From positions 1-9,689 of the forward strand of contig JAIRRF010000230.1 in NCBI GenBank assembly GCA_031256115.1: DNA of 9,689 nt, read 5' to 3'. Source of the stretch: Treponema sp. GTDB lineage: Bacteria > Spirochaetota > Spirochaetia > Treponematales > Breznakiellaceae. Position numbers and translations under genes: made by a program. Each line of letters begins with the position of its first letter. Position 1 is the stretch's first letter. This document shows positions 3-9,303 of this stretch, one piece after another. The notes below the pieces were generated by a model, which saw only the letters and a program-made list of their open reading frames with translations, was not told the origin of the DNA and searched no databases.

Positions 3-143
3 GGGCAGCGAAGCCAAATTGTATTAACAGCTACAGAATTCAACAATGTTAAGGATGTTCAGATCCTGATTGACGGCAAGCGGGTGGATTATCTTGGTGA
101 AGGTATTTGGATTGGAAGCCCTGTCGGCCGGAATATGCTTTAG
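3..143 (+). CDS. C-terminal end of a GerMN-domain protein (partial)
   Basis: An open frame enters from the left edge (first full codon at 3) and ends at TAG 141-143, giving 46 residues. The segment reads like the last strands of a GerMN domain: a short 'TEFNNVKDVQILIDGK' stretch, then a G-x-x-V-x-Y-like turn and a short tail ending in GRNML. GerMN domains occur in spore-germination protein GerM and in many lipoproteins of non-sporulating bacteria, including spirochaetes, where their role is poorly defined. The N-terminus, including any signal peptide, lies outside the window. The stop is 10 bases before the ATG of the cyclase gene, and that gene's likely Shine-Dalgarno overlaps the stop codon, so the two are probably co-transcribed. 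The frame and stop are seen directly. The family call rests on a short fragment and is moderate. Confidence 0.65.
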   Translation, partial: GQRSQIVLTATEFNNVKDVQILIDGKRVDYLGEGIWIGSPVGRNML

Positions 144-146
144 AGG
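142..146 (+). promoter_or_regulatory. Ribosome binding site deciding the cyclase start
   Basis: AGAGG lies 7 bases before the ATG at 154 and overlaps the TAG stop of the preceding gene. A possible earlier ATG at 70 in the same frame would put 28 extra codons inside the GerMN-like frame and has no good Shine-Dalgarno. A later ATG at 178 has GGAGG (157-161), but too far upstream. The 154 start is therefore preferred. Confidence 0.6.
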
Positions 147-153
147 TTGGAGG

Positions 154-1662
154 ATGGAGGAATACTTGCAGTCTGAGATGCCTTTTTCTAACCGGACTCT
201 TGCACTTTTGGATGTAATAAATGCCAATGGTCTTGGCCTTTGGGAAATAGCAGACAATATAATTAATCTTGATGATAAAACTTCCGAGATCATCGGCATG
301 GAGGGGAATAATCAGCTAAAGCTGGATGATCTGGTAAATTTTATTCATGAAGAAGACCGGCAGGAACTTCTGGATACTATCGAAAAAATAACAAGTAATT
401 GCGGTGAAAGCGGCATGGCAGAATGCCGGATCTTTAATCAAAATGATAAGAATTACAAATGGTGCCGGATCATGGGAAAAAGCTACCTTGATAAGGGAGA
501 AATGGTAATACTGGGCACCAACCAAATTATAGAAGGCCGGGCTCTGGAAATATATAATTCAATGATTGAAAAAATTAACAGAGAATTGAACAGAAAGGAT
601 GAATTAAATAAATGCATTTTTGATATAACCGAGATTCTGCTCAGTGCGGATGATGCGTTTTTTGATAAATCCTTTCAGGATTCAATGGAAATTGTCGCCA
701 GGGCCGTGGGTCTTTCCAGGGTTTATGTTTATAAAAGTCATGTTATAGAAGGAATATTATGCTGTACCGAAATCCATGAATGGGCAGAAATTACGGAAAC
801 CACCATGGGGAAAGATTTTACTACAGATATGCCTCTTCAATCCTGGCCCGGTCTGGGCGAAGAATTGTATCAGGGAAAAAATTATAACAGGCTTATTAGG
901 GAAACCCCGCCGGAAATCCAGGAAATGACAGCCCCGGGAAACTGTGCAGTTCTCTTTACGCCTATCTTTCTTAAAGATTTGCTTTGGGGTTTTGCCGGTT
1001 ATGAATGGACCAGAGAAATACTTTTCAACGGTGATGAGACAGCGGTTCTTGGTTCAGTAGGGCTGCTCCTGGCAAATTCCCTGATTCGCAACGATTTAAA
1101 CAAAAACCTGTATTTAGCGGTAGATAAAATTAACACCACCACCATTAAAGCGGAAGTGCTGGAAAGGTATGCCTATACTGATGCCTTAACAGACCTTTAT
1201 AACCGGCGGCATTTTATAGAACTTGCCCAGGGGCCACTGGAAAAAGCCAAGCGCTTTGGCACTTCCTGTTTTGCAATGATGATGGACCTGGACTTTTTTA
1301 AGAAAGTCAACGATACTTACGGACATTTGGCAGGGGACGAAGTGTTAAAAAACGCTGCCCTGGTTATGAAAAATGCCATCCGGGCCTATGATCTTCTTGC
1401 CCGTTACGGCGGAGAAGAATTTGTAGTTCTGGTTTCCGATACTGCCAAAGAAGATGCGATCAACCTGGCGGAACGAATTCGGGAATCAATTGCCGACTCA
1501 CCCTGCATATTTAACTGCATCAAAATTCCCATCACAGTAAGTATTGGAATTGCCGCTTCTTTTCAGGATTGCAGTATCGAAGGCCTTATTGATAAAGCAG
1601 ACAAAGGTCTTTATAAAGCCAAGGAAGCAGGCAGAAATCAGGTTGTTTTTATCGAAGAATAA
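154..1662 (+). CDS. PAS-GAF-GGDEF diguanylate cyclase
   Basis: The 502-residue protein should make cyclic di-GMP from two GTP in response to a signal. From the 154 start, residues about 26-126 look like a PAS fold, with a D-D-L-V-N-F-I-H-E-E-D-R stretch typical of PAS domains. A helical linker follows, then a GAF-like domain at about 160-316 and the GGDEF domain at about 339-500. The active-site motif is GGEEF (419-423), a functional variant. The preceding RAYD (410-413) is an RxxD inhibitory site five residues upstream, so product feedback inhibition is likely. DLTDLYNRRHF-like and DLDFFKKVNDTYGHLAGDE motifs are intact. I see no membrane segment or signal peptide, so it is probably cytoplasmic and senses a soluble ligand or partner; the ligand cannot be read from sequence. 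It follows the GerMN gene closely and converges with btuD. No EAL or HD-GYP phosphodiesterase domain is fused. Confidence 0.93.
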   Translation: MEEYLQSEMPFSNRTLALLDVINANGLGLWEIADNIINLDDKTSEIIGMEGNNQLKLDDLVNFIHEEDRQELLDTIEKITSNCGESGMAECRIFNQNDKNYKWCRIMGKSYLDKGEMVILGTNQIIEGRALEIYNSMIEKINRELNRKDELNKCIFDITEILLSADDAFFDKSFQDSMEIVARAVGLSRVYVYKSHVIEGILCCTEIHEWAEITETTMGKDFTTDMPLQSWPGLGEELYQGKNYNRLIRETPPEIQEMTAPGNCAVLFTPIFLKDLLWGFAGYEWTREILFNGDETAVLGSVGLLLANSLIRNDLNKNLYLAVDKINTTTIKAEVLERYAYTDALTDLYNRRHFIELAQGPLEKAKRFGTSCFAMMMDLDFFKKVNDTYGHLAGDEVLKNAALVMKNAIRAYDLLARYGGEEFVVLVSDTAKEDAINLAERIRESIADSPCIFNCIKIPITVSIGIAASFQDCSIEGLIDKADKGLYKAKEAGRNQVVFIEE

Positions 1663-1695: not shown

Positions 1696-2385
1696 TTATG
1701 GGCAGGAAAAAACCTCCGTCGACTGCCCCAGGGCGCTGATTATTCCGTCATTCACAAGGGCCCCGGCAGTTCCATAACGGCGGGCCAGGTTCAGGTCGTG
1801 AAAAACAGCGATGATGATCCGTTCTCCTGATTTGACCCAGGCGGTAAGGTAATCCATCAGCTTTGTTTGATTTTCTATATCCAGATGATTGGTGGGTTCG
1901 TCCAGTAAAATGATCCGGGGATCCTGTACCAGCGTCCGGGCAAGAAAAATCCGTTGAAGCTGGCCTCCGGATAATTCGCTGATCAACTCATCCCGCAGAT
2001 CATCAAGAGTCAGGGTTTTTAGGGCATTTTCAATGGCCGCTTTGTCTGCGCTGTCCAGGCTGCCAAACCAGCCCTTGCGGTAGGCATATCTGCCCATTGC
2101 AACCGTATCATATACCGTATAGGGAAAGTAGAGGGGCGAAACCTGGCCCATGAGGGCGATGTGCCTGGCCAGATCCTTTTGGGAAAAGGCAGATATTTCC
2201 CGCCCATCGATAGTTATGCTTCCCCGGAAAGGCAGCAGCCGGGCAATAGCCTTTAACAGAGTGCTTTTTCCGCAGCCATTGCTTCCAACGATACAAAGGA
2301 ATTCTCCCGGCTCAACTTTCAGGTTAATTCCTTTTAACACATCTGTGGTTCCGTAACCGCAGAAAATTTCCCGCAGTTCCAGCAT
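1696..2385 (-). CDS. btuD: B12 ABC transporter ATPase (BtuD-like)
   Basis: This is the ATP-hydrolysing subunit of a FecCDE/BtuCD-type importer, on the cytoplasmic face of the membrane with BtuC. Numbered from the ATG at 2385 (229 residues): Walker A GSNGCGKS at 34-41, Q-loop Gln81, signature LSGGQ at 138-142, Walker B IILLDE at 158-163, D-loop NHLD just after it, and switch His196 in FHD. All catalytic elements are present. The btuC stop overlaps the ATG by one base (TGATG). A TTG one codon upstream (2388) is an alternative start. The protein ends soon after 'GQSTEVFSCP', some 20-25 residues short of many relatives, which usually carry a further helix after the G-x-P-x-E-V-L motif. The nucleotide-binding core is unaffected. 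It is the last gene of the operon. The vitamin B12 substrate is inferred from the riboswitch and btuB; family members also move haem or siderophores. Confidence 0.9.
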   Translation of the reverse strand: MLELREIFCGYGTTDVLKGINLKVEPGEFLCIVGSNGCGKSTLLKAIARLLPFRGSITIDGREISAFSQKDLARHIALMGQVSPLYFPYTVYDTVAMGRYAYRKGWFGSLDSADKAAIENALKTLTLDDLRDELISELSGGQLQRIFLARTLVQDPRIILLDEPTNHLDIENQTKLMDYLTAWVKSGERIIIAVFHDLNLARRYGTAGALVNDGIISALGQSTEVFSCP

Positions 2386-3431
2386 CAATTTTTCCTCCGG
2401 CCAAAATACAGCCAGGCAAAAAAGGGCGCGCCGATAAGGGCGGTAACGGCCCCAATAGGTAGTTCCGAAGGGCTTACTGCAATCCGTGCGAGTATATCTG
2501 CACTGAGCATAAGGATTCCCCCGGCACAGAATGACATGTATATTACATAGCTATGGCGGGGACCGGTAATGCGCCGGGCTACATGGGGGGCAATAAGGTC
2601 CACAAAGCCGATAGCGCCGCAGAGCGAAACCGCCGCGCCGGTAAGAAGGGCGGCACAGAGAAATAGCCGTTTCCGGACTTTTGGGGCGTTAACCCCCATG
2701 GCTCGCCCTTCATCTTCCCCAAATGAAAGAATGTCCATTTCTTTGGTATAAAGGAAAACTCCCCCAATCCCCAGAACCAAAAAAGGAATGATGAGTCCCA
2801 CATGGATCCAACTTCGCATGGCAAAGCTCCCCAATTGCCAGATAAGAAGGTTTTTTAATTCTTCTCGGAACAGCGAATGCAGGGTAGCAAGGATGGCATT
2901 GACAAAAAGGGAAATGACCATCCCCAAAAGGATGATTGTATTATTGGAAATGGTTTTGTCCAGCCGCGCGGCTAGGGTAAATACGATAAGTACCGTACCC
3001 AGGCCGAATATAAAACCAAAGAAAGGCAGAATAAAAGGCCGAAGAAATCCGAGGGGCAGGGAAATAGCACCCATCATAACCAGGGCCGCCCCCAGAGACG
3101 CGCCGGAAGATACCCCCAAAATATAAGGCGAAGCCAGGGGATTCTTCAGTACCGATTGGAACACTGCCCCGCTAACTGCCAAGGATCCACCCACGATAAA
3201 GGCAAGAATCGTCCGCGGTAACCGGAGTTCCCAGACAATGGCGGTAATCTGCGGATCCGTTTCTGACTTTAGATTCAGGATTTTTGTCCCTATGACCCGG
3301 ATAGTCTGTGAAACCATGATGCCGGAACTTCCCAGAGATGCTCCGGCGCAAAGGGCTACAAGGGAAAGAATTCCGGCCAGGAGAAGCTTATTGAGCGCAG
3401 AGCCTGAAGTTCCGAAGGAAAGAGCTTTCAT
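2385..3431 (-). CDS. btuC: B12 ABC transporter permease (BtuC-like, FecCD family)
   Basis: This 348-residue inner-membrane permease forms, as a dimer with BtuD, the channel that moves corrinoid from periplasm to cytoplasm. The sequence is strongly hydrophobic, with roughly nine to ten candidate membrane helices starting at about residue 14. Family hallmarks are visible: the NPLASPYILGVSSGASLGA segment in the first third, a G-E-D-E-G-R-A-M-G-V stretch before a basic loop (the cytoplasmic coupling region), and the C-terminal IGFVDLIAPHVAR and ELPIGAVTALIGAPFF blocks. Length is normal for FecCD permeases (about 320-350). The ATG overlaps the btuF stop as ATGA, with no clear Shine-Dalgarno of its own, so translation is probably coupled to btuF. 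FecCD proteins cannot be assigned a substrate from sequence alone; B12 is inferred from the operon. Confidence 0.92.
   Translation of the reverse strand: MKALSFGTSGSALNKLLLAGILSLVALCAGASLGSSGIMVSQTIRVIGTKILNLKSETDPQITAIVWELRLPRTILAFIVGGSLAVSGAVFQSVLKNPLASPYILGVSSGASLGAALVMMGAISLPLGFLRPFILPFFGFIFGLGTVLIVFTLAARLDKTISNNTIILLGMVISLFVNAILATLHSLFREELKNLLIWQLGSFAMRSWIHVGLIIPFLVLGIGGVFLYTKEMDILSFGEDEGRAMGVNAPKVRKRLFLCAALLTGAAVSLCGAIGFVDLIAPHVARRITGPRHSYVIYMSFCAGGILMLSADILARIAVSPSELPIGAVTALIGAPFFAWLYFGRRKN
2394..2398 (-). promoter_or_regulatory. Shine-Dalgarno of btuD
   Basis: GGAGG on the - strand sits inside the last codons of btuC, 8 bases before the ATG at 2385 and 5 bases before the alternative TTG at 2388. 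Either start fits, so the site does not settle the choice. ATG is preferred because it is the stronger codon and forms the TGATG overlap. Confidence 0.65.
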
Positions 3432-4327
3432 TCGGAATAAACCGCCCGGTACATTTCTTCCAATGTCAATACGATATTCTGCGAAGGACGGGAAGCGTGA
3501 TTACCGTTAATAGGATAAATACGATTACGGCGGACTGCCGTAATGGTCTGAAACCCCGGACGTTTTTTTAGCTCTGCAATGGCAGCGGTTCCATCCGCTG
3601 TCATATTGTCTTTTCCGTCAAGGACAAAGATTACATCCGGGTTGGAGCGGATAACCGCCTCTGAACTGGGGGTAAACCATCGTTTTTCGCCGGCAAAAAT
3701 GTTCCGGGCGCCGGTTATCTCAATAAGTTCGTTCAGATAGGTTCCCCTGCCAAAACTAACCATGTTAGGTACCGGGGCTATTTCAAAGTAAACACTTTTT
3801 TCGGTACCCGATACCTCGACACTCTGTACCACAGATTTAATCTTTTCTTTCATAATTCTGACAAGGTCTTCTCCTTTTTCTTCGGCTCCCAGCGCTTGTG
3901 CAATAAAGATGATGGTGCCATATATTTCTTCGATGCTGTTGCTGGTGGGGATTTGAATTATCCTTACTCCCAGATTCCGGAAAAACTCAAAGCCCGTTTC
4001 GTCCCTGCCGTTGGTGTTAATTTCCGCGGCAAAAATTATGTCAGGTTTTAAGCCGGCAATAGATTCCATGTCGGGGTAAAATAGATCTATTTCCGGCAAA
4101 TCCTTTTGTATACCTTCCACATCTTTGGAATATTTATCTACAGCCACAAGTTTATCCGCCAGTCCCAGGCCGGCGATAATTTCCGTATTGGAAGGGGCGG
4201 CGGACATGATCCGGTTGATTGCCGGCGGATGATCTATAATCCTGCCGCCGGATCCGGTAATCGGTTTTTCTGCACATCCGGACAGGAGAACAAAAAGTAT
4301 AAAGAATAGCAAATAATTTCGGTTCAT
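3428..4327 (-). CDS. btuF: Corrinoid-binding periplasmic lipoprotein (BtuF-like)
   Basis: This 299-residue substrate-binding protein delivers ligand to BtuCD. It starts with a short hydrophobic signal ending in the lipobox L-S-G-C; Cys18 would be lipidated, so it is membrane-anchored, unlike the soluble E. coli BtuF. The mature part is a class III (PF01497-type) binding protein: the opening strand is followed by APSNTEIIAGLGL, whose Glu is the kind of residue that docks on permease arginines, then a P-D-M-E-S-I-A-G-L-K-P-D-I-I-F block and a C-terminal lobe ending in LTLEEMYRAVYSE. Its ATG directly follows the btuB stop (TAAATG), with GGAG five bases upstream. Its stop overlaps the btuC start by four bases. 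Iron-siderophore or haem binding would look similar; the B12 call rests on the riboswitch and receptor. Confidence 0.88.
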   Translation of the reverse strand: MNRNYLLFFILFVLLSGCAEKPITGSGGRIIDHPPAINRIMSAAPSNTEIIAGLGLADKLVAVDKYSKDVEGIQKDLPEIDLFYPDMESIAGLKPDIIFAAEINTNGRDETGFEFFRNLGVRIIQIPTSNSIEEIYGTIIFIAQALGAEEKGEDLVRIMKEKIKSVVQSVEVSGTEKSVYFEIAPVPNMVSFGRGTYLNELIEITGARNIFAGEKRWFTPSSEAVIRSNPDVIFVLDGKDNMTADGTAAIAELKKRPGFQTITAVRRNRIYPINGNHASRPSQNIVLTLEEMYRAVYSE

Positions 4328-6343
4328 TTATTCTCCAAAGACCATATTAATTCCAAGAGTCATACTAATTCCGGGCATGGGATAATCGGCAAAAGAAACA
4401 TACTGAGCATTAAGGGCATTGCGAATCTTCCCGAACACGGCAAAATTTTTATTCAATTTTTGATTATAGGTAAAATTGAGAAGAAAAACAGGGTCCAGCT
4501 TTGTGATGTTACGGGTATCAGCGTAACGAACGCTTTCATAACGACCGGAAACAAGCAGGGAACCAGGGAGTTTATTACTTGTGGTTTTCCAGGACAATTC
4601 CAGTGATGCGCCAAAGATATGGAGCGGCATATAGGGAATACGAAGATTGTCCTTAAAGGAAAGATCCCCGCTCAAAAGCCAGCTTGTTTGATAGAGCCAG
4701 GATAAGTCCAGGATTGGTTTTTCCAGAGGGCCCGGAGAAAATGGAATGCTTACACTCAAGCGATTATCCCAGCCAGTAAAAGCGGCAATGCCTGAATTTT
4801 CCGGCCTCCATGAACCTGATATATTACTCCAATGGATGGAATCTTCCGTCCATGCCCCGTAGATTGTCGAGTTAAGGTTGAAACTGTCTTTGTGCAAAAT
4901 TTCCAGACCCAGATCTGCGCCCCAGCCGTCTTCGTTTTTAAGATCCGGATTCCCTGTAAAATCGCCCTGCTTCCAATAAAGGTCGTTAAAATCCGGAAAC
5001 TTAAAACTGCGGAAATAATTGTTTTTCAGGATAAAATAGTCGTTAAGTGTCCAAGATAAGCCAAATTTGGGGATGGGAACTATTTCCCGGCCATTGCTGA
5101 TCCCTTTAATTGAAGCGATAAGGAGCAGTTTTTTTACAGGGAAATATTCTGTACTGATATAAAGTCCGCCCCGGTGGCCGTTATGGATGCCTGTATCTGT
5201 GGAATCAAGACTAATAAAGTTGTAATCCCCGCCGAAACGCAGGGTAAACCCTGTCGTAGGATGCCAACCCCAGCGATTTATCAGGGAAAGGTCATGCTCA
5301 TCGTGGCGGGAAGGGATATTACCCGGATCATAATCAATTTTTTGCCAGTTGTGCCCCAGGCTCAATTCCATGGAAAAATCATCATGAAAAGCTCTGGGCA
5401 TATCCAGCATGATGGTTTCCCGCGAAACCATATCCCTTTGTTCCGCATAAACTGTACTATAACCGGAAACAGGTATGTTTTTATCTCCCCAATAAAAGGC
5501 GCCTGTAACTATGAGTTTTATGAGATCGGGAAATTCCTGTATGAAAGAAAGAGAAGTTCCTGCATCAATGATTTCGTTACCTTCCTTGCGCCGGGCATAA
5601 CCGAAATAATCCTGGTACAGAAAATGATTCCCCGCACGGTTAGCGAAGATTTGAGCCCGGAAAGAGTTATTTTCTCTGCCGTAAGCGCCGAAGATGTTCA
5701 CATTTTGAGCATCCCCAAGATCCTGCCATTGGGGAGATCCTACGCCGCCCTGGGGACTGTTGTACTCGCCGGGCAGATAGGATGTATTGGAAAGGCCGCC
5801 CCCGAAAATCCAGCCGGGTTTTTGCTTTTTTACCGTAACAATGTTGATCACCCCTCCCAGGGCTCCGGAAACATTGTATTTGGTATCCGAGCCTCCGTGG
5901 ATAATTTCGATTCGCTCTATCGAAGCAAGATCAATAGAATTAAAATCAAATTCTCCGGAGGCCGCTGAATTAACGGGGATACCGTCAATTAAAACGGCAG
6001 TACGCTTTGTGTTGAATCCCCGGATATTCACGTCTGTCCTGTTGCCGTATGGACCGTATCGGGTTATTCCCAGACCGGCGGCTTCTTCCAAAAGGGAAGG
6101 AAGATCCGGCGCATGGGTCTTTTCGATAGTCTCCCGATCAATGATTTCCATCTGTTGGGTCGTACTCTTGCTTCCAACAATGGTGATCCCTTCACCTTCC
6201 ATTAATGGAAGTTCATAGTCCCATAAATCATCGTCATCGTATTCATGTGGGTGTCCCACCCGCCCCTGAGGGAAAACATTCCCCCAGGGGATAAGGACTG
6301 CGAGAAACAGAGCCATGACAGGGAGTTTGCCGGGTTTAGTCAC
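4328..6343 (-). CDS. btuB: TonB-dependent outer-membrane corrinoid receptor (BtuB-like)
   Basis: A 671-residue outer-membrane receptor that should take up corrinoids using TonB energy. It begins with GTG at 6343-6341, overlapping the TAG of the lipoprotein gene by one base (TAGTG), with AAGG seven bases upstream. A signal peptide occupies about residues 1-26. The mature N-terminus has an unusual His/Asp-rich stretch at 31-44 (HPHEYDDDD followed by LWDYE), then a TonB-box-like EGITIVG at 51-57. The plug (about 60-172) shows the IRGFN, LIDGIPVN, IERIEIIHGGSDTKY and ALGGVINIV motifs. The rest, about 176-671, is a beta-barrel rich in aromatic alternating strands. It ends in a strand containing NAQYVSFADYPMPGISMTLGINMVF followed by GE, so the last residue is not the usual Phe. 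Length suits BtuB-like receptors (about 600-700). The cobalamin riboswitch upstream supports the substrate. Confidence 0.9.
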   Translation of the reverse strand: MTKPGKLPVMALFLAVLIPWGNVFPQGRVGHPHEYDDDDLWDYELPLMEGEGITIVGSKSTTQQMEIIDRETIEKTHAPDLPSLLEEAAGLGITRYGPYGNRTDVNIRGFNTKRTAVLIDGIPVNSAASGEFDFNSIDLASIERIEIIHGGSDTKYNVSGALGGVINIVTVKKQKPGWIFGGGLSNTSYLPGEYNSPQGGVGSPQWQDLGDAQNVNIFGAYGRENNSFRAQIFANRAGNHFLYQDYFGYARRKEGNEIIDAGTSLSFIQEFPDLIKLIVTGAFYWGDKNIPVSGYSTVYAEQRDMVSRETIMLDMPRAFHDDFSMELSLGHNWQKIDYDPGNIPSRHDEHDLSLINRWGWHPTTGFTLRFGGDYNFISLDSTDTGIHNGHRGGLYISTEYFPVKKLLLIASIKGISNGREIVPIPKFGLSWTLNDYFILKNNYFRSFKFPDFNDLYWKQGDFTGNPDLKNEDGWGADLGLEILHKDSFNLNSTIYGAWTEDSIHWSNISGSWRPENSGIAAFTGWDNRLSVSIPFSPGPLEKPILDLSWLYQTSWLLSGDLSFKDNLRIPYMPLHIFGASLELSWKTTSNKLPGSLLVSGRYESVRYADTRNITKLDPVFLLNFTYNQKLNKNFAVFGKIRNALNAQYVSFADYPMPGISMTLGINMVFGE

Positions 6344-6891
6344 TAGGGTACCTTGTTATAGGGTGTGACTACACTCCAATCAATATAATTTCCCATTCTT
6401 CCAAGGGTAAATTTCTTGATTGCTTCTTCCAGAGTTGCAGTGTCGGCGGAACTGTAATTATCATTAAGATTAATGGCATTTGCCAGTTTGACTGTGGTGC
6501 TTGTCAAGTCCCGGTAATAGATACCGGTAAAAGGTTTATTCGGATCAGAAAAAAGGTTATTAGTATATTCGATGATAATGATTCCGGAACTACTGTTGTA
6601 ATTTGATACAAAACGAATTGTTCCTTTATACTCAAAAGGCCATTCGTCATCATTCATCAAATATCCAATAGTATGCTCTTCTTTGCCTTCAATAATTTCT
6701 GTTTTAATGATGTACTCATCATAATTGGCCCATTTCCCCACGAGGATGACCGGCAGGGTTCCCGGTTTGTTTACATCATCATCTATCGTGCCATTATTAC
6801 AGCCTGTAAGAAACACTGCCAAAAGACAAACAGCCAAACCCATGCAAACTGCCCTTTTTAGAAAGCTCTTTTTTAGTGAAAAAGTAAACAT
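6343..6891 (-). CDS. Small lipoprotein of unknown function, first gene of the B12 operon
   Basis: I do not recognise a named family for this 182-residue protein. A basic n-region and hydrophobic core end in the lipobox F-L-T-G-C, so Cys31 should be lipidated. A short Asn/Asp-rich linker follows. The mature domain is rich in beta-forming and aromatic residues: GKWANYDEYIIK, a G-T-I-R-F-V-S strand, an S-S-G-I-I-I-I-E-Y-T strand and a G-I-Y-Y-R-D-L-T-S strand, then an ALEEA-like helix (ATLEEAIKKF) and a MGNYIDWSVV ending. This resembles a compact lipocalin-like or HmuY-like beta fold in general pattern only. I recall similar lipoproteins in Treponema, but cannot verify that here. It is the first gene after the cobalamin riboswitch and overlaps btuB by one base, so it is made under B12 control together with the receptor. 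A surface or periplasm-facing corrinoid-capture role is inferred from position. Confidence 0.85.
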   Translation of the reverse strand: MFTFSLKKSFLKRAVCMGLAVCLLAVFLTGCNNGTIDDDVNKPGTLPVILVGKWANYDEYIIKTEIIEGKEEHTIGYLMNDDEWPFEYKGTIRFVSNYNSSSGIIIIEYTNNLFSDPNKPFTGIYYRDLTSTTVKLANAINLNDNYSSADTATLEEAIKKFTLGRMGNYIDWSVVTPYNKVP

Positions 6892-6896
6892 AGAAA

Positions 6897-6918
6897 CTCC
6901 TTTTCCGTAGAAAAGAAG
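6897..6918 (-). promoter_or_regulatory. Shine-Dalgarno-sequestering hairpin with UACG tetraloop
   Basis: In the leader RNA, CUUCUUUUC (6918-6910) can pair with GAAAAGGAG (6905-6897) around the loop UACG (6909-6906). This gives nine consecutive pairs, one of them G-U, and a C(UACG)G closure, the extra-stable UNCG tetraloop class. The 3' arm contains the whole AAGGAG Shine-Dalgarno, which lies 5 bases before the ATG at 6891. Folded, the hairpin would block ribosome binding to the first gene. Pairing is seen by eye; function is inferred. Confidence 0.75.
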
Positions 6919-6960
6919 CCTGCGGACACAGATACCCCCTCTAAGGGCCTGTGATCTTTT

Positions 6961-6988
6961 AAAAAACCGGATTTAATAAGCGGTTTTT
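6961..6988 (-). terminator. Weak terminator-like A/T-flanked hairpin in the leader
   Basis: AAAAACCG (6988-6981) and CGGTTTTT (6969-6962) form an 8-bp inverted repeat around an 11-base loop. On the - strand the repeat ends in a run of T. Only three G-C pairs support it, so termination would be weak unless it is helped. It lies between the aptamer and the Shine-Dalgarno hairpin, inside the span closed by the candidate long-range pairing of 7003-6991 with 6922-6912. It may be part of the expression platform or chance. Confidence 0.35.
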
Positions 6989-6990
6989 CT

Positions 6991-7003
6991 CAGGCTCTTC
7001 CTC
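6991..7003 (-). promoter_or_regulatory. Candidate antisequestor segment
   Basis: GAGGAAGAGCCTG on the - strand can pair with CAGGCTTCTTT (6922-6912). CAGGC pairs perfectly with GCCTG. After a two-base bulge, six more pairs form, two of them G-U. The partner contains most of the 5' arm of the Shine-Dalgarno hairpin, so the two pairings exclude each other and this one would free the ribosome binding site. Segment 7003-6991 can also fold on itself through CUUC-GAG-GAAG. This is hand pairing only. Confidence 0.45.
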
Positions 7004-7012
7004 GAAGCTAAG

Positions 7013-7039
7013 AAAAAATGTTCGGCCCAAACAAGGCCG
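7013..7039 (-). terminator. Candidate intrinsic terminator or L13-type hairpin after the aptamer
   Basis: CGGCC (7039-7035) and GGCCG (7027-7023) form a five-pair G/C stem around TTGTTTG, followed by AACA and six T (7018-7013). The distance from P1 is only a few bases. The four-base gap before the T-run is poor for an intrinsic terminator. Hairpins just below cobalamin aptamers often carry the loop (L13) that kisses L5, so this could be that element instead. I could not find a convincing L5-loop match longer than about four bases. Confidence 0.35.
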
Positions 7040-7042
7040 CCG

Positions 7043-7270
7043 TATACCAAAGTTTCCTGGCTTATGGGCTGCTGTTATGATGCATTGCATCGAATAACGG
7101 CCATTCCGCCGGTCTTCCCAGACAAAAGCCCAGTGACCGCTTGAAACCAAAGAGAAACCCTTGGTTTCCTGGCAGAATTTTCCCAATCACAGTTACGGGA
7201 TAGCGGGGGATTTTCACCCCGGAACCATCGGATTGCAGAATCCGCAGGTTCCTTGCTTCCTTTGAAATAT
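7043..7270 (-). promoter_or_regulatory. Cobalamin (B12) riboswitch aptamer
   Basis: The - strand shows the conserved cobalamin-aptamer order. P1 forms from AUAUUUCAAAG (7270-7260) and CUUUGGUAUA (7052-7043). GGAACC (7252-7247) pairs with GGUUCC (7226-7221). GGGGUGAAAAUCCCC (7220-7206) is the G-U-G-A-A-A-A-U hairpin. It is followed by GCUAUCCCGUAACUGUGA, matching the 'GC..CCCGCAACUGU' block. GGUCACUGG through UGGGAAGACC (7138-7111) matches the CACUG/UGGGAAG arm. The B12 box AAGCCAGGAAAC (7063-7052) closes it. Extra peripheral stems include GAAACCAA/UUGGUUUC and GUUAU...AUAAC around GAUGC/GCAUC. Adenosylcobalamin or a related corrinoid should bind and lower expression of the lipoprotein-btuBFCD operon downstream. 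Which cobalamin form it prefers cannot be read from sequence. Confidence 0.93.
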
Positions 7271-7318: not shown

Positions 7319-7364
7319 AGGCAAAGCCAGTCGCCTGGAACTTATGTATGGGATTTATCCATAC
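7319..7364. repeat. Two short inverted repeats between ddl and the B12 promoter
   Basis: GTATGG (7346-7351) and CCATAC (7359-7364) flank the ddl stop codon with a 7-base loop. CAGGC (7319-7323) and GCCTG (7334-7338) form a second one; the latter overlaps CCAG-GCGA-CTGG, a GNRA-type hairpin on the - strand. Neither is followed by a T-run, so neither is a clear intrinsic terminator. They may mark the ddl 3' end or aid Rho-dependent termination; readthrough into the riboswitch leader is possible. Confidence 0.35.
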
Positions 7365-8461
7365 GTAGTCTTCAATTTTTTTTCTTTTTCAAACTTTGCT
7401 ATGGCCAGTTCTATTAACCTGGTGATTAGCTCCGTGTAGCCTATGCCGCTTTTTTCCCAGAGCTTTGGGTACATGCTGATCTTGGTAAAACCCGGCATGG
7501 TGTTAATTTCGTTTACCAATACAGAACCGTCTTCTTTCAGAAAAAAATCAACCCGGGACAGACCTGAACATTCAAGAACCTGAAAGGTTCTCATGGCAAG
7601 AGATTGAATTTCCCGGATCTTTTCATCACCAAGTTTGGCGGGAATCTCCAGAACAGCCCCGTCGGCATCGATGTATTTGGCTTCGTAGGAATAAAATTCT
7701 CTTGCCGCCTTGACTTCCCCGGGAAGGGAAGCCTGGGGATCTTCGTTTCCCAGAACAGAACATTCTATTTCCCTGCCGGGAATATTTTCTTCCAGTATTA
7801 TCTTGGTATCGTACTTAAAGGCTTCGTTTACAGCCGCCATAAAGCTTTCTTCATCCGGAACTTTACTTACACCAACACTGGACCCCATGTTGGCGGGTTT
7901 AACAAACACAGGATTACCCAATATTGCCATTATATCCTTAAAGGCAGGAACAGCTTCCCATTCTCTAAAGACAAGAAATTTTCCTATCGGTATGCTGCTG
8001 TCTCTTAGGAGTCTTTTCATCACATCCTTGTCCATCCCTGCGGCAGAACCAAGCACACCGGATCCCACAAAAGGAATATCCGCCAGTTTTAAAAGGCCCT
8101 GGACAGTGCCGTCTTCGCCAAAAGGGCCATGGAGAATAGGAAAGATCACATCGAGATGAATTAACCGGGCCGGATCCTCCGGCATGGAAAGCTGCCCGGA
8201 GCTTGCTATACGGAGCAGAACTTCGTTGCTGTTAGAACTCAGGCTGATCTTTGCCGGATCATCAACATGATCGATAAAATCTTCCGCCTTCGTATGGGAA
8301 CCATAAAACCACGCTCCGCTTTTATCAATTCCAATTAAAATGGGATTAAATCTTTCCCGATCAATGGCTTCAAAGATATTTCTTGCCGATTGCAGAGACA
8401 CTTCATGTTCAGCGGATTTCCCGCCGCAGAGTATGCCCACATTGAGTTTTTTGTTTATCAT
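7355..8461 (-). CDS. ddl: D-alanine--D-alanine ligase
   Basis: This ATP-grasp enzyme joins two D-alanines to make the dipeptide used for peptidoglycan precursors in the cytoplasm. It has 368 residues, the longer Ddl type. The N-terminal SAEHEVS holds Glu18, matching E. coli DdlB Glu15. LHGPFGEDGTVQG follows at about 110-122, then KPANMGSSVGVSK at 188-200, containing the catalytic Ser. The omega-loop FYSYEAKY (256-263) ends in Lys262-Tyr263, matching DdlB Lys215-Tyr216. Metal ligands are Asp305 in RVDFF and Glu318/Asn320 in NEIN, before TMPGFT. Tyr at the omega position indicates D-Ala as second substrate and argues against a D-lactate (VanA-type) ligase, which has His there. The ATG overlaps the PHP gene stop as ATGA, so the two are co-translated. 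I see no resistance-cluster genes nearby. Confidence 0.96.
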   Translation of the reverse strand: MINKKLNVGILCGGKSAEHEVSLQSARNIFEAIDRERFNPILIGIDKSGAWFYGSHTKAEDFIDHVDDPAKISLSSNSNEVLLRIASSGQLSMPEDPARLIHLDVIFPILHGPFGEDGTVQGLLKLADIPFVGSGVLGSAAGMDKDVMKRLLRDSSIPIGKFLVFREWEAVPAFKDIMAILGNPVFVKPANMGSSVGVSKVPDEESFMAAVNEAFKYDTKIILEENIPGREIECSVLGNEDPQASLPGEVKAAREFYSYEAKYIDADGAVLEIPAKLGDEKIREIQSLAMRTFQVLECSGLSRVDFFLKEDGSVLVNEINTMPGFTKISMYPKLWEKSGIGYTELITRLIELAIAKFEKEKKLKTTYG

Positions 8462-9303
8462 CCTGCCTTCTTATGATGATTTTTCAGACTGTCTGCCACT
8501 TCATTAAAACTCATCCACCGTCGGCCGGTAGTTTTACCCCTTTTGTATCCTATTTCTGTTTTAAGGGAAAGAGGCTTATCTCCGTCAAAATTTTGAAACT
8601 CGCAGCGGCCCGAAGGAATATGCAGAACTGCTTGCTGTTTGTTAAGGATAAAAGAGACATAATCATTTATGGAAGAAAGTTTTATTCCAATCTCGATGCC
8701 ATAAGGCCCGTTGTTCCTCCCAATTCTATCCACACTATGGGTGTCCGAACCGGCCACGGCGGGAAGACCCAGAAGGCGGGCATACTCCAGAGCCTGGGCA
8801 TCGTAGATTGCTTCGCTGTTTCCCGCATTGGCAGCCTCCACAGCATCAATAAAGCAGGGAGAAAGCCGCAATGTACTGATATAACTATGCTGTCTAAACG
8901 GATGTGCATGAACCACACAGCCCCCATAACGGCGGACTTCCCGGAACTGTTCTTCCCTGGTCCAGCGGATCATTTCTGGATGTTCCAGAAGCCATGTTTT
9001 ATCCAGGCCGTAAATCAGAAAATCATCGCCGTCAAAAGTTTCTTCCCAGCCAAAAAAAACATTCACTCCCCGCTTTTCTCCTTCGTTCCGGGCATCCTCG
9101 TAACCGGAACAAAAACCCTTAACCCATTCTGACCAGCTTTTACGGCGGTCAAATGCAGTGTTGCTGTTAAAAAAATGATCCGTTACCATTATTCCGGTAA
9201 AACCCAGATCCCTGTAAACCCGGACATACTCTGCCCCCCGTGAAACACTACAGGCGCTGGCCTGACTGGTATGGAGGTGAGTTTCGTACAAAAATGTCAT
9301 CAT
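8458..9303 (-). CDS. PHP-domain metal-dependent hydrolase
   Basis: This 281-residue PHP protein is probably a phosphoesterase or related metallohydrolase; the substrate is unknown. Metal-binding motifs come in the expected order: ETHLHTS (His9, His11), VTDHFF (Asp42, His43), GWEETFDGDDF (Glu in 87-88), VVHAHPFRQ (His132, His134) and AGSDTHS (Asp187, His189). This is a nearly complete PHP set. The last 70 residues or so are basic and less conserved-looking, ending in HHKKAG. The start is ATG at 9303; the next codon is also ATG (9300), preceded by a GGCGGG-like purine run that suits the second ATG better. It lies 20 bases after the upstream gene and overlaps ddl by four bases, so the three probably form one operon. 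Stand-alone PHP proteins of this size include histidinol-phosphatase-like and nucleoside-phosphate-acting enzymes; nothing here narrows the choice. Confidence 0.9.
   Translation of the reverse strand: MMTFLYETHLHTSQASACSVSRGAEYVRVYRDLGFTGIMVTDHFFNSNTAFDRRKSWSEWVKGFCSGYEDARNEGEKRGVNVFFGWEETFDGDDFLIYGLDKTWLLEHPEMIRWTREEQFREVRRYGGCVVHAHPFRQHSYISTLRLSPCFIDAVEAANAGNSEAIYDAQALEYARLLGLPAVAGSDTHSVDRIGRNNGPYGIEIGIKLSSINDYVSFILNKQQAVLHIPSGRCEFQNFDGDKPLSLKTEIGYKRGKTTGRRWMSFNEVADSLKNHHKKAG

Follow-up and report, generated by a model that had tools for sequence, protein, structure and literature searches.

We analyzed a 9,689-nucleotide (nt) stretch of DNA from Treponema sp. (hereafter the window; GenBank assembly GCA_031256115.1, contig JAIRRF010000230.1, C46 in our numbering, from a draft genome of 1.73 Mb that is 72% complete) and found on its minus strand an operon that unites vitamin B12 (cobalamin) control, a lipoprotein, a TonB-dependent receptor and an ABC importer. 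The lipoprotein gene (6343..6891, ATG start, 182 amino acids (aa)) was defined by its open reading frame (ORF), structure models, fold matches and conserved context, and its product is a predicted calycin (lipocalin-type) barrel. We propose that this lipoprotein captures corrinoids at the outer membrane for transfer to its partner receptor, BtuB, and we assign this reading a probability of about 0.6. Partnership with BtuB in corrinoid uptake is very probable, while corrinoid binding by the lipoprotein itself and its exposure at the cell surface rather than in the periplasm are both putative, with the odds somewhat in their favor. The family to which the protein belongs is real and B12-linked, and it likely represents a new type of corrinoid-capture lipoprotein.

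The original prediction, made from the window alone, had described an unrecognized lipoprotein as the first gene after a cobalamin riboswitch, with a lipobox at Cys31 and a one-base overlap with btuB, and each of these features was recovered. The riboswitch aptamer (RF00174; 7053..7221, minus strand) scored 43.9 bits (cut-off, 31.5; E value of 1.4e-08) and lies 161 nt before the lipoprotein start codon. Cys31 (6799..6801), which is invariant in a 92-row alignment (A4), follows a hydrophobic stretch whose end reads LTGC. Base 6343 is common to the stop codon TAG of the lipoprotein gene (6345-6343) and the GTG start codon of the btuB-like gene (4328..6343, minus strand), which encodes a TonB-dependent receptor of 671 aa with PF07715 and PF00593 domains. 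The best NCBIfam model for this receptor is TIGR01779 (TonB-B12), at an E value of 1.7e-34, yet under the cut-off of that model.

The lipoprotein gene is paired with btuB

A protein search found 41 proteins, that of the window among them, and 247 matched in a profile search, of which 120 were listed; named organisms among the listed relatives were Treponema, T. primitia, Spirochaetaceae and Spirochaetia only. The cultivable T. primitia has a named homologue (P0121). Over 195 genomes of the same taxonomic family, the profile matched 103 genomes with 137 matches in total, and the window's genome has one copy. For 106 of the 137 matches, a BtuB homologue is listed on the same strand no more than 700 nt downstream. 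At the genome level, 99 genomes carry both proteins, 4 the lipoprotein only, 31 BtuB only and 61 neither (Fisher p of 3.5e-22, which ignores the relatedness of the genomes), and the association of the lipoprotein with btuB is far above chance.

In a sample of 340 genomes from the larger order, 84 carry a match, and outside the taxonomic family these are only 10 genomes, from one genus of a second family, linked to the main family at 99.4% by profile comparison. In each of these 10 genomes the distant homologue adjoins a receptor: in nine it lies in tandem directly upstream, and in one tail to tail (L221). Re-annotation of the fetched loci of both families gave 151 lipoprotein ORFs, of which 123 lie within 400 nt of a receptor ORF (for the first family alone, 114 of 141); one locus (L064) was labelled as lacking btuB in the re-annotation yet counted as adjacent among the 106 of 137, as a result of long stop-to-stop ORFs. 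The expected co-occurrence of homologues with btuB and cobalamin riboswitches holds across two spirochaete families. A search of genome contigs gave four loci, all in Treponema metagenome-assembled genomes, and none of 22 stretches of viral contigs that fit a pattern codes for a relative.

We also asked the question from the side of the receptor. More than 150 BtuB places exist, and of the 150 listed, 106 have a lipoprotein match and 44 do not. We examined 25 of these 44 and omitted 19, in which the receptor match starts at residue 70 or later or the upstream sequence, for plus-strand places, is shorter than 500 bases. Six of the 25 offer less than 200 nt of upstream sequence. Among the remaining 19, 12 have, directly upstream, a lipoprotein of the same type that went undetected in the first search (L175, L176, L177, L198, L201, L203, L204, L206 and L211-L214), and profile comparison links these diverged proteins to the family (98.6% with the 41-row alignment A1 and 99.9% with the second-family set). 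A longer lipoprotein-like ORF, compared with the family by position only, lies directly upstream of the receptor in L199 and L200, a family member lies elsewhere in the cluster in L193 and L194, and no family lipoprotein was found at the three other places (L178, L179 and L215). The btuB operon of L215 (5130-5451) has a listed riboswitch directly ahead of btuB with no lipoprotein gene between them. L178, from a genome of 4,059,867 bp, encodes a second, diverged BtuB-like receptor (3175-7068) without the lipoprotein, and the ORFs upstream of it look like cobS and cobT.

Cobalamin riboswitches accompany the pair

We scanned 100 of the 106 loci with lipoprotein and btuB for riboswitches, plus 20 loci without a listed btuB. 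An upstream, same-strand cobalamin riboswitch at the gathering score was present in 55 of the 100, in 49 cases within 410 nt, a distance that runs to the matched domain and not to the start codon; 15 of the 45 loci without a riboswitch have less than 600 nt of upstream sequence. In the second family, a single cobalamin riboswitch match is present in each of five genomes out of the 10; four of these matches exceed the cut-off, and all five lie directly ahead of the lipoprotein. The other five genomes have none. Conversely, among 150 riboswitches listed under stricter filters, a family match lies downstream within 1 kb for 35 and within 5 kb for 44.

These results bear on the idea that the gene is an accidental hitch-hiker, an ordinary lipoprotein retained through operon inertia. 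A single operon by itself could not exclude this, but the pairing with btuB has been retained across deep divergence in two families, and the 35 riboswitch-family pairs within 1 kb compare with about 0.02 expected under a rough estimate of uniform placement. We consider accidental retention very improbable.

In L084 a stand-alone cobalamin adenosyltransferase (Cob_adeno_trans, PF01923; 4501-5040) directly follows the receptor gene, and in L194 a Mg-chelatase-type ATPase (7442-8482) directly follows btuB, which suggests a tie of that locus to metal insertion into tetrapyrroles. ORFs that resemble the L084 adenosyltransferase by appearance were seen in L124 and L157.

The lipoprotein is predicted to form a calycin-type barrel

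The compact beta-rich domain named in the original prediction stands as a structure prediction, and at that level alone. Modeled by itself, the lipoprotein is predicted to be a compact barrel of ligand-binding type, with eight strands at residues 52-55, 58-67, 70-79, 87-99, 102-112, 121-127, 133-138 and 178-180, consistent with the small antiparallel beta-barrel (8 or 10 strands) of the Calycin/lipocalin superfamily. The first strand opens with G52-K53-W54 (6730..6738), a GxW signature of the kind described in calycins (PMC7521688; this and the other papers cited here are drawn on for the parts of their text that were accessible). G52 and W54 are invariant in A4, and in a wider 145-row set the frequencies are 0.91 for the glycine and 0.89 for the tryptophan. 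The predicted model also matched a solved calycin structure, and the barrel is predicted to be joined to its lipid by an acidic, probably flexible segment. A looser lipobox pattern matched 134 of 147 ORFs longer than 120 aa, and a stricter one 94 of 151.

Sequence searches gave little beyond this. The window lipoprotein matched no Pfam-A family at an E value of 1 or better, and an NCBIfam scan was likewise empty. No credible Pfam family was found for the 41 A1 rows and 10 second-family members, for which the lowest E value, 0.0023, came from New_glue in a single second-family member. Searches of PDB sequences gave weak matches to odorant-binding proteins with A1 and A4 (E values of 0.58 and 1.4) and a match to streptavidin with A3 (0.0085, profile positions 24-75). 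A match of A4 to 1t77 (0.16) was judged unrelated, and one of A2 to a DUF4465 entry (0.015) was discarded, as it rests on the signal peptide. Foldseek alone gave no structure match at an E value of 0.001. Known corrinoid lipoproteins were absent among the structure matches listed, an absence that is compatible with likeness to them.

Divergence of the lipoprotein partly follows that of the receptor

We compared protein distances over 37 loci in which all four genes are long enough. Lipoprotein distances showed a rank correlation of 0.48 with those of BtuB, -0.10 with BtuF and -0.07 with BtuC, while BtuF and BtuC correlated at 0.89. The partial value for lipoprotein and BtuB, 0.52, was reached by 0 of 1000 permutations. 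Because lipoprotein distances track BtuB and not BtuF or BtuC, they favor a lipoprotein-BtuB cassette, with support that is moderate at best. Segments of BtuB correlated with the lipoprotein at 0.31-0.49 from residue 168 on and at 0.12-0.36 earlier, with the lowest value for residues 108-167, in the plug, at a resolution too coarse to place a contact.

A role that involves no ligand, for instance in the assembly or stability of receptors of this BtuB lineage or in their coupling to TonB, would fit the presence of the lipoprotein beside BtuB-like receptors even at loci where neither a riboswitch nor btuFCD was seen, and beside strongly diverged receptors (L216 and L217). However, the predicted fold is of a ligand-binding type, and the fast divergence of the lipoprotein (median distance of 1.73 vs. 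0.75 for BtuB) suits a conserved assembly factor less well, which makes such an accessory role quite unlikely.

Weighing corrinoid capture at the outer membrane

Several observations weigh against capture as the function of the lipoprotein. Of the loci, 69 extend 2500 nt or more past the receptor. The full set of btuF, btuC and btuD is present in 35 of them (a riboswitch in 25), and all three genes are missing from 27 (a riboswitch in 10); therefore, the B12 link is weaker in the loci of a sizeable part of the family that is paired with BtuB-like receptors. In a family tree of 145 rows and 118 columns, with many unresolved forks, the 119 btuB-linked rows are spread throughout and the other 26 lack the link, six of them forming one supported btuB-less clade, a minority of homologues that stands beside unrelated genes. 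The lipoprotein-BtuB correlation owes part of its strength to four long-type loci; without these it was 0.24 and the partial value 0.28 (1 of 1000 permutations), and BtuB and BtuF correlated at 0.64. Finally, treponemal calycin lipoproteins such as Tp0751 have been argued to be periplasmic (PMC7521688), and the fold keeps a periplasmic variant a live rival.

In that variant, the lipoprotein would be anchored inside the envelope, where it accepts or shields the corrinoid delivered by BtuB before handing it to BtuF, and the continuation of the operon into btuFCD agrees with this. Yet lipoprotein distances follow BtuB, less strongly without the long-type loci, and not BtuF or BtuC; no btuF follows the receptor in 31 of the 69 loci; and in some loci the lipoprotein has fn3, cadherin-like and GLUG lipoproteins as neighbors. 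We regard a periplasmic relay as unlikely.

The btuB-less clade and other contexts, the long-type members, the loci without btuFCD or a riboswitch in the examined stretch, and the haem binding of Tp0751 (PMC7521688) would also suit a broader treponemal calycin lipoprotein family that serves a variety of TonB receptors and of ligands (haem, siderophores and corrinoids), with B12 as one use. This is compatible with capture by the window's own protein and is possible, if rather doubtful. Against it, all riboswitches in the scanned loci were cobalamin riboswitches but two, a glycine riboswitch downstream of btuB (L096) and a thiamine pyrophosphate riboswitch (L172); six of the 20 scanned loci without a listed btuB bear a cobalamin riboswitch; and the adenosyltransferase and the Mg-chelatase-type ATPase follow the receptor, at one tested locus each. 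On the tree, the btuB label changes 18 times vs. 24.4 in shuffles, and homologues beside unrelated genes, which the original prediction had named as grounds for rejection, are the minority. Its suggestion of a corrinoid-capture lipoprotein thus draws support from co-occurrence in context and from the predicted barrel. The btuB-less paralogues are those of L181, L182, L185, L186, L187 and L189, and those of L181, L182 and L185 adjoin lipoprotein-like ORFs of ~600 aa.

For corrinoid capture at the outer membrane, the steps would be as follows. At low B12 the riboswitch would permit expression of the operon; the barrel would bind corrinoid, probably at its rim or mouth, while positioned beside or over BtuB; and BtuB with TonB would move the corrinoid across the outer membrane and BtuFCD across the inner membrane. 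Larger lipoproteins next to the small one may be extra surface parts in some loci.

Leader, neighboring genes and larger lipoproteins

Just 3' of the aptamer, a consensus scan found a terminator-like stem and T run (7023..7039, minus strand), a possible expression platform that is no proof of function on its own. A 12-pair hairpin pairing the AAAAGGAG ribosome-binding site (6894..6921, minus strand) was found by a pattern scan and a minimum-free-energy fold of the whole leader (z of -2.5). Because the leader has both elements, it could possibly switch by either type, termination or masking of the ribosome-binding site. Downstream of btuB, on the same strand, lie genes for a btuF-like periplasmic binding protein with a visible lipobox (3428..4327; PF01497, Peripla_BP_2), a btuC-like FecCD permease (2385..3431; PF01032) and a btuD-like ABC ATPase (1696..2388; PF00005, ABC_tran). 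A gene for a GGDEF protein whose sensory part is weakly PAS/GAF-like (70-1662, plus strand) converges with the operon end, and genes for a D-Ala-D-Ala ligase and a PHP-domain protein (7355-9303, minus strand) lie directly upstream of the riboswitch.

At several loci, larger lipoproteins with fn3 and FGE-sulfatase-type, GLUG or cadherin-like domains are encoded upstream of the small one. FGE-sulfatase-type lipoproteins directly precede it in L062 (1885-3498, with a riboswitch further upstream), L066 (5509-7032) and L063 (3-779); fn3 accompanies this domain in L062 and L066, and L063 ends at a contig edge. They are possible second surface parts of B12 uptake. GLUG-motif or cadherin-like proteins in L126 (58-1734), L104 (1-1515), L130 (5819-7498) and L133 (358-1668) are followed by a long-form small lipoprotein (240-305 aa) and a BtuB-like receptor, and the riboswitch may sit several kb upstream in such loci (~3.5 kb on the L126 contig).

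Comparison with known systems

If the proposal is true, the kind of TonB uptake of B12 with lipoprotein assistance that is described from gut Bacteroides arose in spirochaetes too, with a different fold, and an unnamed lipoprotein family gains a testable ligand. At odds slightly short of even, we suggest that spirochaetes evolved a lid for B12 capture of their own, in the form of a lipocalin-type barrel that acts with BtuB under a cobalamin riboswitch, in which case treponemal calycin lipoproteins, among them Tp0751, would represent a tetrapyrrole-capture class. In titles and opening abstracts of the open-licence literature, we found no lipocalin-type fold in bacterial corrinoid capture and no such B12-linked TonB-partner lipoprotein in Treponema or other spirochaetes.

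In the HmuY/HmuR system, a tetrapyrrole-capturing lipoprotein is encoded ahead of a TonB receptor, and the treponemal gene order resembles it. The window lipoprotein matched neither the HmuY nor the NlpE model, both of which are presumably present in Pfam-A. BtuG of Bacteroides, which we take to be a beta-propeller with the Pfam label DUF5074, differs from the small calycin barrel predicted here; DUF5074 did not match the window lipoprotein in the Pfam-A scan, and it matched 5 of the 195 genomes, none above the cut-off. BtuG, a surface lid on BtuB (PMC10404256), is similar in being a B12-related lipoprotein encoded beside btuB and a proposed capture partner of BtuB (PMC10404256, PMC6143338).

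Within Treponema, T. primitia ZAS-2 given 5-aminolevulinic acid produced more corrinoid and grew better (PMC6461909). Tp0751 of T. pallidum, reported to bind haem at a micromolar Kd and to be either an adhesin/protease or a periplasmic calycin, differs in that its description, in the accessible part of the source, includes no TonB-receptor partnership (PMC7521688), and it was not among the PDB sequence matches of the family alignments.

Bacteroides use BtuG, BtuH, BtuJ and BtuK1 for B12 (PMC10404256, PMC8941943, PMC12751083, PMC13398666). Compared by description only, BtuH is likewise an accessory B12-binding protein of cobamide transport loci, which binds B12 through a C-terminal domain without known structural homologue (PMC8941943), and BtuK1 is a cobalamin-binding lipoprotein of a cobamide operon (PMC12751083). 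BtuJ, an augmented beta-jellyroll (PF14717, DUF4465), shares with the treponemal protein its place as a lipoprotein of riboswitch-controlled B12 operons and the proposed ligand (PMC12751083, PMC13398666), and DUF4465 homologues are recorded in Spirochaetota (PMC13398666). No PF14717 match was found in the window lipoprotein, the 41 A1 rows or the 195 genomes, in line with the original suggestion of a lineage unrelated to known capture lipoproteins. Therefore, the treponemal lipoprotein would function like the B12 class of Bacteroides while belonging to a family different from those tested by Pfam, BtuG and BtuJ.
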